From Sphaerisporangium sp. (lineage in GTDB: Bacteria; Actinomycetota; Actinomycetes; Streptosporangiales; Streptosporangiaceae), in the NCBI GenBank assembly GCA_025964675.1, contig JAOPYI010000255.1, positions 1 through 64,000 on the forward strand: a stretch of DNA of 64,000 nt. The letters are read 5' to 3'. The notes below the pieces were generated by a model, which saw only the letters and a list, made by a program, of their open reading frames with translations, searched no databases and was not told where the DNA came from. Shown piece after piece: positions 43,432 through 47,782 of this stretch. The translations under genes were made by a program, and so were the position numbers. Every line of letters starts with the position of its first letter. Positions within the stretch are counted from its first letter, which is position 1.

Positions 43432-43513
43432 AGTTCCATCATGAACAGTGAACGGCCACTCATGGCCCACCCGTACCGAGGTCGGCAGATCGGGATGGAG
43501 GCAGGACGCGACC

Positions 43514-43804
43514 GTGGGGATCGTTAGGGACATCTTGGTCGCGGTCCTGTCGATCTATCTCGTACTACTGATCGGCAGAATGATCTTCGAGACGGTGCAG
43601 GCGTTCGCCCGCTCCTGGCGCCCCACAGGGGTCGTCCTGGTGCTGGCGGAGGCCACGTACACGGTAACCGATCCACCTCTCAAGTTCCTCCGCCGTTTCA
43701 TTCCGCCCCTCCGGTTGGGTACGGTGGCCTTTGACCTAAGCTTCACAGTGCTGTTCATTGTGGTCTTGGTCATGATCCAAATCGTGTCCGCGCTTCGTTT
43801 TTGA
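43514..43804 (+). CDS. YggT-family membrane protein
   Basis: A 96-residue protein with two membrane helices, IVRDILVAVLSIYLVLLIGR and VAFDLSFTVLFIVVLVMIQ, joined by a segment with the YggT hallmark YTVTDPPLKFLRRFIPPLRLG. The family occurs between sepF and divIVA in most Gram-positive division clusters; its function is undefined, possibly in septum geometry. GTG 43514 gives the expected length, although the frame is open to 43448. Confidence 0.9.
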   Translation: MGIVRDILVAVLSIYLVLLIGRMIFETVQAFARSWRPTGVVLVLAEATYTVTDPPLKFLRRFIPPLRLGTVAFDLSFTVLFIVVLVMIQIVSALRF

Positions 43805-43852: not shown

Positions 43853-44722
43853 ATGCCGCTGACGCCCGCTGATGTGCGGAACAAGCAGTTCAGTACCACC
43901 CGGCTCAGGCCGGGGTACGACGAGGAAGAAGTCGACGCCTTCCTTGATGAGGTGGAGGCCGAGCTCGACCGCCTCATCCAGGAGAACGAGGAGCTTCGTG
44001 CGAAGCTGACCGAGTGTCTGCGCGGCAAGGTGCCGGGTGGGATGGGCATGAGCATGGCGCCGGCGCCGGTCGCCGAGCCCAAGCCCGAGATGATGATGCC
44101 CCAGCCGGAGCCCATGAAGCCGCCGGAGCCCATCAGGCCCGAGCCGGTCCCCGTCGGGATGGGTATGCCGCCCGCCGAGGACAACATGGACACCGCCGCC
44201 CGCGTGCTGGCTCTGGCGCAGCAGACCGCGGACCAGGCCATCGCCGACGCGCGCCGCGAGGCCGACGAGACGGTCACCCGTGCCCGGCGCGAGGCCGACG
44301 AGGTTCTCGGCAAGGCCCGCCGCCAGGCCGAGCAGATCATCGGTGACGCCCGTGCCCGCGCTGAGACGCTAGAGCGCGACGCCCAGGAGCGCCACAGGCA
44401 GGCGATGGGCTCGCTGGTGCAGACCCGTGACGAGCTGGAGCGCAAGGTCGAGGAGCTGCGGAGCTTCGAGCGTGAGTACCGCAGCAGGCTCAAGCTGTAC
44501 CTCGAGAACCAGCTCGCCGAGCTCAACGTGTCGGCCGAGGCCAGCGGCGGCTTCCCCGTCGTGGGCGCCCAGATGGGCGGCGCTCCGCCGATGTCCCACG
44601 CTGTCGTCCCCGGTGGCCAGCAGCAGATCCCCGGTGGCCAGAACAACCCGTTCGGCCCCGAGTCCTCGCAGCACTCCAACGCCTTCCAGGGAGTCGACGG
44701 CCCCCACAACGATCGCCGTTAA
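43853..44722 (+). CDS. divIVA: Polar growth protein DivIVA/Wag31
   Basis: A 289-residue coiled-coil protein that marks curved membrane and directs tip growth in actinomycetes. The lipid-binding N-terminus reads PLTPADVRNKQFSTTRLRPG followed by YDEEEVDAFLDEVEAEL. Residues about 62-112 are a Pro/Met linker with repeated PEP units, then a long coiled coil (DARREADETVTRARREADEV...; about 125-225) and a Gly/Gln/Asn tail. The preceding AAGGAGACC site supports ATG 43853. Confidence 0.95.
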   Translation: MPLTPADVRNKQFSTTRLRPGYDEEEVDAFLDEVEAELDRLIQENEELRAKLTECLRGKVPGGMGMSMAPAPVAEPKPEMMMPQPEPMKPPEPIRPEPVPVGMGMPPAEDNMDTAARVLALAQQTADQAIADARREADETVTRARREADEVLGKARRQAEQIIGDARARAETLERDAQERHRQAMGSLVQTRDELERKVEELRSFEREYRSRLKLYLENQLAELNVSAEASGGFPVVGAQMGGAPPMSHAVVPGGQQQIPGGQNNPFGPESSQHSNAFQGVDGPHNDRR

Positions 44723-44766: not shown

Positions 44767-46932
44767 GTGATCTACCTCAGCGCCATTCTGGTCGTACTCG
44801 CCTTCGGCCTGCTGGTCGCGGGCGTGGTGACCGGAACAGCGGTCCTGGTCATGTGGTCGATCGTGGTCAGCGTGCTGTCCGCGGTCTTCCTTATGATCGG
44901 GGCGCTGCTGCGACGCCACGAGTTGTTCCCCTCCGGTGGCACGCCGGCGGCCACGGCGCCGCCGATGCCTCCGGCAGGCGCCGGCGTCGCGGGTGGCATG
45001 ATGGGCCGTCCCGGGGCGGTTGCCTCCTCAGCGGCCCCGCCGCGCGGGGCCTCCTCTCAGCTGGTCCATCCCCTGGCCGCGCCCCACACGATGCACCAGA
45101 CCGCCACGCTGGCTTCGCCGCGGGGGTTTCCCTCGGCCGCGGCCCGCGGCCCTTCGGGCGCGGGGGGCATCTCCTCTCCTGACGCGATCGTGCTGGTGAT
45201 CCCGGGGCGCAAGCGGTTGCACCTCCCCGGGTGCCGCCAGCTCGCCGGGCGCGAGACCGAGGAGCTCACGTACGAAGAGGCCCGCGAGGAGGGCTTCACG
45301 GCGTGCACCACATGTCTCCCTGACGGCTACAAACCGGACACCGCATACAAGTCGGAGGCCGGACGCACAACGGAGACCATCACTCGTACGCCAGAGCCCG
45401 GCCGCACGTCCGACCCTGGCGTGAGGTCCGAGGCTGGTCGCGCATCTGAGGTGGGTCACCGGTCCGAAGCCGGTCGTACGTCCGAGACTGGCGGCAAGCC
45501 GGAAATCGGTGACAAACCCGACTCGGCACACAAGTCCGAGACGGCACGTAAGTCCGGGACTGGTCACAAGTCCGAGGAGACGCGGCCGGTGACCCAGGTC
45601 CCCGCCGAGTCGGCGATGGAGTCCACCGAGAAAACCCCCGGGCGCGCCGGGCCTCCAGTCGGCTCCTCCACCACGTCGTCTCCCCCCTCCATCGCTTCTC
45701 CTACCTCTTCTACCGCTGCCGACGCCGACGCCGAGCGTTCCGATGGGGGGCAGGCCTCCACATGGAGGTCCGAGGCATGGTTCGCGGCCCGGTCCTCGGG
45801 CTCGTCCGCGAGCAAGCCCACTCAGAGTCCGCCGGCCGACACGGCTTCCAGCAAGCCCGGAGACTCCCCCTCCTCGTCGAAGCGGCCTGGCGCGTCGGCT
45901 GAGCCGATCGCCGTATCGGCACCTCCCATAGAGCTTCCAGAGGCCGTCACCCCTTTCCAGGCGTTCAAGCGCTCGGATTCGCCCAAGCCGCCCGCCAGTA
46001 CGGGCAAGCCCTCGACCGGCGAAGCCAAGCCCGGCGAAGCGAGGCCAGGGGAGCCGAGTGGCGGGAAGCCTGGAGAGCCGGGCGGCGGGAGGCCTCGCAC
46101 GACGCCGTCCGATACCTCCGGCGCCAGTGCGGGCAAGCCCGGAGCAGTCGGCAAGAAGCCCGTTGCGGCTCCTGATGACGACGATGAACCGGTGGTCGTG
46201 GTCAGCGGTTCCTCCCGTCCGGCCGACGCCCCCCGCAAGCCGGACAGCACCGGTAAGTCGGACAGCACGAGCAAGCTGGACACCATCGGCAAGTCGAACG
46301 ACTCTGGCAAGACGAACGGCTCCGGCAACGGTTCGGAGACCGGCGAGCCGGTCGCGCCCGCGAAGAGCGCCGAGCCGGCGAAGAGCGCCAGGCCCGGAAA
46401 CAGTGCCGGACCTGAGAAGGCCGCTGGATCCGCGAAGATCACCGACTCCGTGAAGAGCCCAAAGCCGACGAAGGCCGGCGAGCCCGGGAAGAGCTCGGCC
46501 CCGGGGAGGTCTTCGGCACCGGACACGAGCACGACGGCCCTGAGGAGCGAAGGCTCCACTGAGGCCGCCCCCAAGCCGGCTCCGGCCGCCGAGAGGCCTT
46601 TGAAGCCGGCGGCGGGCGGTGGCTCGACTCAGGCGGCGAGCCCCGCGGACAAGCCGAGGGATGCGCAGGACAAGCCAAAGGACGCCGGCGACAGGTCGAT
46701 GGATGCCGGCGACAGGTCCAGGGACGCCCACGACAAGCCGAGGAAGAGCGAGCCGACCGTCGAGGTGATGCGCCCAGGCATCGTCAAGGTCATCTCCGGC
46801 ACCCGGCGGTACCACAGCTCCGCCTGCCCGATGATCAAGGCATCGGACCCCGGCACCCTCGAGACGATGTCCAGGGCCGACGCCGAGGCCGCCGGCCTCA
46901 CCCACTGCTCGGTCTGCGACCGCGACGACTGA
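44767..46932 (+). CDS. Membrane protein with two Ada-like zinc motifs and a disordered linker
   Basis: A 721-residue protein I do not recognise as a named family. Two N-terminal helices (about 3-26 and 29-49) end in LLRRHE, which puts the rest in the cytoplasm. At about 147-184 and again at 680-717 there is an H-x3-C...C-x2-C motif: RLHLPGC then ACTTC, and RYHSSAC then HCSVC, with 23 and 26 residues between halves. The spacing equals that of the Ada N-terminal zinc site (C-x3-C-x26-C-x2-C) with His for the first Cys. The roughly 490 residues between are low-complexity Ser, Pro, Lys, Gly with degenerate GRTSE/RSEAGR units. It starts 44 bases after divIVA, same strand. Confidence 0.8.
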   Translation: MIYLSAILVVLAFGLLVAGVVTGTAVLVMWSIVVSVLSAVFLMIGALLRRHELFPSGGTPAATAPPMPPAGAGVAGGMMGRPGAVASSAAPPRGASSQLVHPLAAPHTMHQTATLASPRGFPSAAARGPSGAGGISSPDAIVLVIPGRKRLHLPGCRQLAGRETEELTYEEAREEGFTACTTCLPDGYKPDTAYKSEAGRTTETITRTPEPGRTSDPGVRSEAGRASEVGHRSEAGRTSETGGKPEIGDKPDSAHKSETARKSGTGHKSEETRPVTQVPAESAMESTEKTPGRAGPPVGSSTTSSPPSIASPTSSTAADADAERSDGGQASTWRSEAWFAARSSGSSASKPTQSPPADTASSKPGDSPSSSKRPGASAEPIAVSAPPIELPEAVTPFQAFKRSDSPKPPASTGKPSTGEAKPGEARPGEPSGGKPGEPGGGRPRTTPSDTSGASAGKPGAVGKKPVAAPDDDDEPVVVVSGSSRPADAPRKPDSTGKSDSTSKLDTIGKSNDSGKTNGSGNGSETGEPVAPAKSAEPAKSARPGNSAGPEKAAGSAKITDSVKSPKPTKAGEPGKSSAPGRSSAPDTSTTALRSEGSTEAAPKPAPAAERPLKPAAGGGSTQAASPADKPRDAQDKPKDAGDRSMDAGDRSRDAHDKPRKSEPTVEVMRPGIVKVISGTRRYHSSACPMIKASDPGTLETMSRADAEAAGLTHCSVCDRDD
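45340..45590 (+). repeat. Degenerate SEAGR/GRTSE repeats
   Basis: The encoded residues about 192-275 recur in short units such as KSEAGRTTE, RSEAGRASE, RSEAGRTSE, HKSETARKS and HKSEETR. Later parts of the linker use GKSDS, KPGE and DAGDRS units. The repeats are hydrophilic, lacking any predicted fold. Confidence 0.65.
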
Positions 46933-47071
46933 CGCCACAGACAGCGAAGTGCGTGCCGAAGCCGATCGTGTTGGGCTCCTCCAGCTCGGCAACGAGACGG
47001 TGGCGGGAGCTGAGCAGAGCACCCTGCACGACCTGCTCCACCGTGCCGTCACCCACCGCTGATCTGATCGT

Positions 47072-47425
47072 CTACTGCCCCAAGTCGAACGACGCCTCGG
47101 GTCGGGGCCTGCCGCCGACGAAATCCATGGACTCGCGGGCGAGTTGCGGCCACGCCTGTTCGGAGGCCGGATCGAGGCTGAACCACTCCTTCATGGGCGT
47201 GCCCTTGTTCGCGTCGAAGCGCACGCCCTCACCGGCGGCGACGAGCAGGTCGACCCGCGCCCGGGGAAGCTTCACAACCAGCCGATCTCTGACCAGCATC
47301 GCGAAGATCTTGTTCTGGATTCTCAGCGCGCTCGAGCCGAACCCGGTGCCCGGGCGCGGCGGGGTCACACCGGGCATGCCGACCATCTCATACACCAGGT
47401 CGTCGAAACGGTCTTGAGGGATCAT
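47072..47425 (-). CDS. TfoX/YjbR-like domain protein
   Basis: A 117-residue protein starting MIPQDRFDDLVYEMVGMPGV. The pattern NKIFAMLVRDRLVVKLPRARVDLLVAAGEG followed by TPMKEWFSL is typical of the TfoX N-terminal or MmcQ/YjbR fold, small DNA-associated or unknown-function proteins. ATG 47425 has an excellent AAGGAGG site seven to eight bases upstream, better than the longer open frame to 47497. Function unknown. Confidence 0.75.
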   Translation of the reverse strand: MIPQDRFDDLVYEMVGMPGVTPPRPGTGFGSSALRIQNKIFAMLVRDRLVVKLPRARVDLLVAAGEGVRFDANKGTPMKEWFSLDPASEQAWPQLARESMDFVGGRPRPEASFDLGQ

Positions 47426-47782
47426 TGCCGCTACCTCCTTGCCGCTGGCGAGTTTAAACGCGAGCACCGACAATCCCCCCGGCCCCTTTCCCGCCACCTC
47501 CGCCGTAATGTCGTTCTTCGTTCGGCGTCATACCGGAGCATTCGCCGCACTCTCGGATGAGGCGAATGCATGGCATCGCGACGAGAATGGTAAAAGGGTG
47601 CCCGGAATGTTTCTCTGTGGTGGCCTTCCCAGCTGCCCTCGTAAGCCTGCCGCACGCCGAAGCCGTCGCGCACACCGGCCGTTCGGCGGGCCGCGATCGT
47701 CGGCTAATAAGGGGTGTGTGTACCGGAATCGCCGGTCTCGGCAGATCGAACCGGTCGATCGCTCGCGGCGCAGGATCGGATC
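47426..47782. other. Divergent intergenic region
   Basis: No gene I can support between the TfoX-like gene (minus) and the hydrolase (plus). TAATAA at 47705-47710 may be the -10 for the hydrolase. The stretch 47560-47630 is relatively AT-rich. Open frames here are short and lack family features. Confidence 0.4.

Follow-up and report, generated by a model that had tools for sequence, protein, structure and literature searches.

A membrane protein with two Ada-like zinc modules, encoded directly after divIVA in Streptosporangiaceae, as a candidate tether working with DivIVA

The 64,000-nucleotide stretch of Sphaerisporangium sp. DNA analyzed here (the window) contains, directly after the polar growth gene divIVA, a gene encoding a 721-amino-acid protein with an N-terminal hydrophobic stretch, a long low-complexity arm and two small modules predicted to bind zinc and to adopt the fold of the N-terminal domain (N-domain) of Ada. 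In our preferred reading, to which we give about an even chance, the protein is a membrane-anchored, cytosol-facing tether that works with DivIVA, its cysteine-free disordered arm presenting the structural zinc modules as binding heads. This reading draws on the linkage to divIVA, the homology of the modules, their Ada fold and ligands, the ligand set kept in every module recovered, the topology, the confinement of cysteines, a Trp-Phe motif in the arm, selection and the precedent of GlpR. It is only partly understood how the peripheral coiled-coil protein DivIVA recruits and organizes membrane-bound growth machinery at the tips of actinobacteria, and a membrane protein encoded beside divIVA in several families, for which neither Pfam nor NCBIfam has a model scoring above cut-off, offers a concrete and testable candidate. 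The open-licence literature that we searched yielded no description of the gene; the fold is already known, and the architecture and setting appear undescribed.

The gene occupies positions 44767–46932 of the forward strand, an assignment supported by the open reading frame, its relatives and selection. It starts with a GTG codon, with a GGGAG stretch shortly 5′ of it on inspection of the sequence, and begins 44 bases after the divIVA stop codon; an earlier note, made from the sequence alone, had given the reading frame and this gap correctly. The divIVA gene itself (43853–44722, forward strand) was identified by PF05103 (E = 2.2e-19) and TIGR03544 (over the cut-off) and recurs in all 60 relatives fetched. 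It is preceded by a yggT-family gene (43448–43804, forward strand; PF02325, E = 4.6e-13). The order leading up to the 721-residue protein gene is ftsW, murG, murC, ftsQ, ftsZ, yggS, sepF, yggT and divIVA, where Pfam was applied to yggT and divIVA and the other names were read from the translations by eye. On the 3′ side, reading of the translations places a TfoX/YjbR-like gene and a hydrolase-like gene before ileS; the former (TfoX_N/YjbR-like; 47072–47497, reverse strand) has Pfam scores below the cut-offs. A sigma-70-type scan, which is poorly suited to high-GC actinobacteria, found neither a promoter nor a terminator between divIVA and the gene. An antisense open reading frame of 674 codons (45028–47052, reverse strand) overlaps the gene and is probably a high-GC shadow frame. 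In Mycobacterium tuberculosis, the neighbour of wag31 is, we presume, Rv2144c. The accessible part of PMC5405230 tabulates Rv2144c as an unknown transmembrane protein. The neighbours of DivIVA named in the accessible part of PMC9858780 are SepF, FtsZ, FtsA, YggT and YggS, none of which is like the present gene.

Module 1 (residues 140–187; 45184–45327, forward strand) has the putative ligands H152, C156, C180 and C183, and module 2 (residues 672–721; 46780–46929, forward strand) has H683, C687, C714 and C717; they were delimited in alignments A1 and A2 of relatives, respectively. Both predicted sites follow the pattern H-x3-C...C-x2-C, with 23 and 26 residues, respectively, between the half sites, as the earlier note had read them, its residue numbers lying within one of ours. 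All six cysteines of the protein sit in these two sites. Since the modules of A1 and A2 were selected by the ligand pattern, which makes ligand invariance in those alignments a matter of construction, we also searched with a profile in which the ligands were masked. This profile, whose training set was part of these pattern-picked modules, recovered 108 modules from the 60 fetched proteins, and H-x3-C...C-x2-C was present in 108 of 108. Cysteines beyond the two sites number just 20 across the 60 proteins; the second hydrophobic helix accounts for 19, and the remaining one falls in the first strand of a module 2. A chance origin of the motifs was rejected, as the sites are kept across relatives.

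Comparison of the module 1 alignment with the module 2 alignment gave a probability of 98.7% (E = 1.6e-16); by this profile comparison, the two modules are homologous to each other. A tree of 54 of the 124 modules, built on 49 columns, left a single origin of modules 1 and 2 unsettled. In it, the C-terminal modules of the window's family group with that of L167 (family f17) with support values of 96/93, apart from those of three other families (100/100), so that one duplication and two are both possible.

AlphaFold2 models of the modules, built from the relatives' alignments, had pLDDT values of 90.4 (module 1) and 88.2 (module 2). When module 1 was searched against the PDB with Foldseek, the Ada N-domain structure 1u8b was the first of 14 matches (E = 0.22, TM 0.65); for module 2, 1u8b was again the best (E = 0.80, TM 0.70), and Ada accounted for three of the four matches listed. 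E values of this size, expected at about 50 residues, are weak and not significant by themselves. VIA-align, which re-examines Foldseek's own matches, superposed module 1 on 1u8b over 49 residues at 2.6 Å (Z = 5.1) and module 2 over 46 residues at 1.7 Å (Z = 5.8), and all four rows listed for each module were Ada; taken alone, Z scores of 5.1–5.8 are modest. The Ada-like fold proposed in the earlier note is thus borne out by both predicted models, which superpose on the Ada N-domain.

At the level of sequence the resemblance is faint. Against Ada_Zn_binding (PF02805), module 1 gave E = 0.02 and 14.9–15.5 bits, below the curated cut-off of 23, and its best Pfam match was DUF6233 (PF19746), with E = 5e-5 when searched alone and 21.3–23.7 bits, also below the curated cut-off (27.6). 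Module 2 of the window matched neither of these families nor any other in Pfam. Among the relatives, at E ≤ 1, DUF6233 was matched by 56 and Ada_Zn_binding by 55 of the 57 module 1 rows; of the 53 module 2 rows, 14 matched DUF6233 and 11 matched Ada_Zn_binding. A PDB sequence search with module 1 returned nothing useful. Profile searches against the PDB placed Ada at the top for module 1 (E = 0.46) and third for module 2 (E = 0.71); the best E value for module 2 (6.5e-4) belongs to the designed repeat protein 8etq, a match that breaks up into five tiny segments, each failing when taken alone. As these sequence-profile matches to Ada are weak, the likeness to Ada rests on predicted structure.

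The likeness extends to the positions of the four metal ligands. Module 2 residues 1–47 match residues 27–73 of 1u8b with 46 aligned, and the equal spans suggest an offset of 26. On the predicted model, this offset would put module 2 residues H12, C16, C43 and C46 on Ada residues 38, 42, 69 and 72, the last three of which we take to be Ada's zinc ligands besides Cys38. In Ada, Cys38 is the methyl acceptor, and the zinc is held by Cys38 together with three other cysteines (PMC10814553, in the text available). In our modules the corresponding residue is a histidine in 108 of 108, and because it replaces Ada's nucleophile no methyl transfer is expected.

This substitution bears on the proposal of redox or alkylation sensing, in which electrophiles or oxidants would react with the zinc sites, release a module and so switch growth or division upon damage, much as Ada responds to methylation. 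The predicted Ada fold of both modules speaks for such a sensor, as does the finding that nearly all cysteines fall in the two sites or at one helix position, which would make zinc-thiolate chemistry unambiguous. Against it, the residue that reacts in Ada (Cys38 in the available text of PMC10814553) is absent from every module; the basic residues of Ada's RPCKRC, around the second cysteine pair, are missing from the TACTTC of module 1 and the THCSVC of module 2; and Pfam and NCBIfam found no helix-turn-helix, methyltransferase or other enzyme domain in the 721 residues, in agreement with the earlier statement that no catalytic domain is visible. We consider sensing improbable, and its alkylation form, which the earlier note had raised, is disfavoured.

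The same residues weigh on a DNA-binding role of the modules, in which the nucleoid or the oriC region would be fastened to the membrane at the tip marked by DivIVA. In actinobacteria, DivIVA contributes to oriC positioning by way of ParA/ParB, which would suit this role. The N-domain of Ada, moreover, does bind DNA (PMC10814553, in the text available). The window's modules lack the basic residues found beside Ada's second cysteine pair, however; one arginine is present there in the distant C-terminal modules of both L095 and L096, and the module 1 consensus, EELTYEEAREEGF, contains many conserved acidic residues. We regard a DNA tether as very unlikely. If the modules are protein-binding heads instead, the Ada fold, familiar from DNA alkylation repair, would appear here in a structural role.

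The 721-residue protein has a single N-terminal hydrophobic stretch, with hydropathy window centres at residues 10–42. This stretch (about residues 3–47, followed by RRHE; 44773–44907, forward strand) is long enough for two helices and a short turn, and we infer a hairpin; the hydrophobicity behind the two N-terminal helices proposed earlier is thus confirmed by hydropathy, and their division into two is our reading of its length. In 59 of 60 relatives, fixed residue windows contained more lysine and arginine past the hydrophobic stretch than at its centre. The positive-inside rule would then place the arm and the zinc modules on the cytosolic side, a topology that fits the membrane-tethered scaffold envisaged in the earlier note.

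The linker (residues 184–670; 45316–46776, forward strand) is a low-complexity region rich in serine, proline, alanine, glycine and threonine and free of cysteine; it measures 487 residues by the boundaries used here, as against the 490 estimated earlier. The linkers of the 48 two-module relatives range from 107 to 591 residues (median 372.5), and cysteine is absent from all 48. The window's linker includes the Trp-Phe short motif SEAWFAAR (45769–45792, forward strand). Among the relatives, WF or WxF occurs in 34 of 60 linkers; 200 composition shuffles gave a mean of 2.3 and never more than 7. F-[KR]-[RK] was found in 12 of the 60 (2.0 in shuffles) and PGRAG in 17 (0.4 in shuffles). The motifs were picked after viewing the common 5-mers of the same linkers, and the species share ancestry, so that these counts are not independent events.

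The architecture is kept widely within the family. A module 1 query found matches in all 11 genomes of the genus (including that of the window) and in 94 of the family's 150 genomes (in 84 of 130 when good assemblies alone are counted); in at least four of the 94, the matched module was the C-terminal one (L093–L096). In all 60 fetched family loci, divIVA lies directly 5′ of the gene on the same strand, and in 45 of them ileS lies convergently on the 3′ side, being elsewhere outside the view of the fetched stretch. Both modules were present in 48 of the 60 proteins, module 1 only in eight (three of them cut by contig ends) and module 2 only in four. For the five complete proteins with module 1 only, a module 2 hidden by a frameshift was sought and rejected: none occurred when all three frames of that strand were read as far as 1,500 bases beyond the stop codon. 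A separate scan, run on named genomes, yielded 194 relatives, of which the best 80 were analyzed; they came from Sphaerisporangium, Nonomuraea, Microbispora, Streptosporangium and other genera, which we take to belong to the Streptosporangiaceae, and from a metagenome assembly labelled Actinobacteria. In 78 of these 80, divIVA precedes the gene, the remaining two having too little upstream sequence; 73 have both modules and seven have one, four of the seven being cut by a contig end. The 60 fetched loci and these 80 overlap in organisms and are not independent samples. The homologues thus retain the Cys/His set and the divIVA neighbourhood, and so escape the outcome that the earlier note had named as refuting its reading.

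Selection differs among the parts of the protein. Compared with four close relatives, dN/dS was 0.04–0.11 for module 1 and 0.26–0.44 for module 2. For the hairpin, it was 0.05–0.11 against three of the relatives and 0.57 against the fourth. Values for the linker were 0.53–0.63, in a region where the alignment is uncertain.

To look beyond the family, we searched 394 genomes of the class with a mixed profile of both modules. It matched 63, of which 44 belong to families other than the window's. Among the 28 of these 44 that were tested, the module gene lies directly after divIVA in 10; all 10 carry the hairpin in the same reading frame, with two modules in five, one in four and a contig cut in the last. 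The hairpin profile was trained on seven of these ten, L160, L163 and L165 being outside the training set. A function in growth or division is suggested by such relatives, which adjoin divIVA in other actinobacteria. In 16 of the 28, no divIVA was detected next to the module; mostly the two are on separate draft contigs, and G160 has no divIVA match. In G458, the module gene is beside ileS, the contig ends inside the gene and divIVA is near the end of another contig, so that the two may well be linked. Outside the class, none of ten genomes tested has a module beside divIVA, and two of these ten have no divIVA match.

The hairpin also occurs after divIVA with no module. In family f14, this is the case at four of four loci (E = 3.8e-19 to 1.4e-21; two were in the training set). 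In the window's own family, eight module-less loci after divIVA (L168–L173, L189 and L190) come from genomes with no module match, and the hairpin profile finds seven of them (E = 5e-8 to 0.013); L171 was assigned by place, hydrophobic start and motif only. Their frames contain 0–2 cysteines each. A TDGLGKASVP-type motif in the arm, which may be a docking site, was recognized in seven of the eight by the TDGLGKASV-like pattern, and L169 has an equivalent by eye. At two f17 loci directly after divIVA, L183 (G170) and L185 (G295), the open frames are 71 and 76 residues, respectively, and extend scarcely beyond the hairpin. Six loci of four families, L174 and L184 (f17), L175 and L177 (f13), L176 (f48) and L181 (f26), showed no detectable hairpin after divIVA; L186 and L187 end too soon for a call. 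At L182, a second DivIVA-like gene is present.

The occurrence of none, one or two modules beside divIVA indicates that the hairpin and arm are constant where the gene is present and that the modules come and go. The module-less forms at the eight family loci and at all four f14 loci make the modules dispensable in relatives, and since the two-module form is not universal beside divIVA, holding partners at a distance, the function proposed in the earlier note for the paired modules, cannot be the sole job of the protein.

The same survey bears on whether the protein is simply a neighbour of divIVA with an unrelated job, such as secretion, envelope stress or membrane-domain organization, kept in place by a seldom-rearranged cluster. 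Because divIVA lies in a stable cluster, the neighbourhood does not prove a shared pathway, which weakens the case for a partnership with DivIVA. In G513, the module gene is beside ileS (L191), and divIVA is on another contig and is followed there by other reading frames (L176); related modules occur elsewhere on other proteins with two transmembrane helices (L192–L196, by eye). The 16 of 28 genomes and the ten outside the class with no such adjacency, together with the six loci in which no hairpin was detected, likewise count against the tether, as do the module-less relatives and the weak Foldseek E values. What argues against mere neighbourhood is that the hairpin keeps the same place in several families that differ in the content of arm and modules. 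We judge the neighbour explanation to be somewhat unlikely, and retain a tether working with DivIVA as the preferred reading.

In such a tether, both ends of the hairpin would be in the cytosol, which would bring the arm and modules to the membrane face that DivIVA coats at tips and septa. Each module would act as a structural zinc-binding head for a protein partner or for a client bound to DivIVA. The arm would set the reach, and the Trp-Phe short motif, found in many species, may add a weak binding site. The hairpin and arm would form the more constant part of the family, modules being gained and lost by lineage. More broadly, we suggest tentatively that the gene after divIVA could be an unrecognized, old component of the actinobacterial machinery for tip growth and division, composed of a hairpin, a variable disordered arm and Ada-like zinc heads, dead in methyl transfer and placed by lineage, that serve DivIVA or its clients; we see this as possible, and somewhat doubtful.

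Several known systems resemble parts of this architecture. The Ada N-domain (PF02805; 1u8b, 1adn, 1wpk and 1zgw) shares the predicted fold and the four metal-ligand positions; the 721-residue protein differs in being membrane-anchored, in its lack of a helix-turn-helix or methyltransferase match, in its modules, which often come in two copies, and in a module 1 score of 15 bits against the Ada_Zn_binding cut-off of 23. DUF6233 is likewise approached by module 1 below its cut-off, and no Pfam or NCBIfam model scored above cut-off for the window protein or for the relatives scanned. Tethers of the ZipA type have an N-terminal membrane anchor, a long disordered linker and a small C-terminal binding domain, an architecture like the present one when compared by description. 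Corynebacterium GlpR is an actinobacterial membrane protein that has long disordered cytosolic arms, as the present protein is predicted to have, and binds the DivIVA homologue Wag31 (PMC10522489, in the text available). According to the same text, it differs in having three transmembrane helices and no zinc module. When the GlpR/SepX model NF050099 was compared with six family proteins (the window's and five relatives), only L158 matched, with 21 bits against a cut-off of 150. By these profile tests GlpR is not of the same family; functionally, we regard it as the closest precedent.

A second kind of actinobacterial module protein was also observed. Nine loci (L192–L196 and L279–L282), not beside a detected divIVA, encode two hydrophobic helices followed by one C-terminal H-x3-C...C-x2-C module; L193 and L196 had no Pfam match over the cut-off, and one genome, G188, has up to nine module matches. 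Outside the class, L277 and L278, again not beside a detected divIVA, have a hairpin-like hydrophobic start, an arm that is first acidic and then rich in lysine and alanine, and one C-terminal module. By eye, the sequence Q-x-P-[YWF]-L precedes the second helix in eight of the nine proteins of the second kind.
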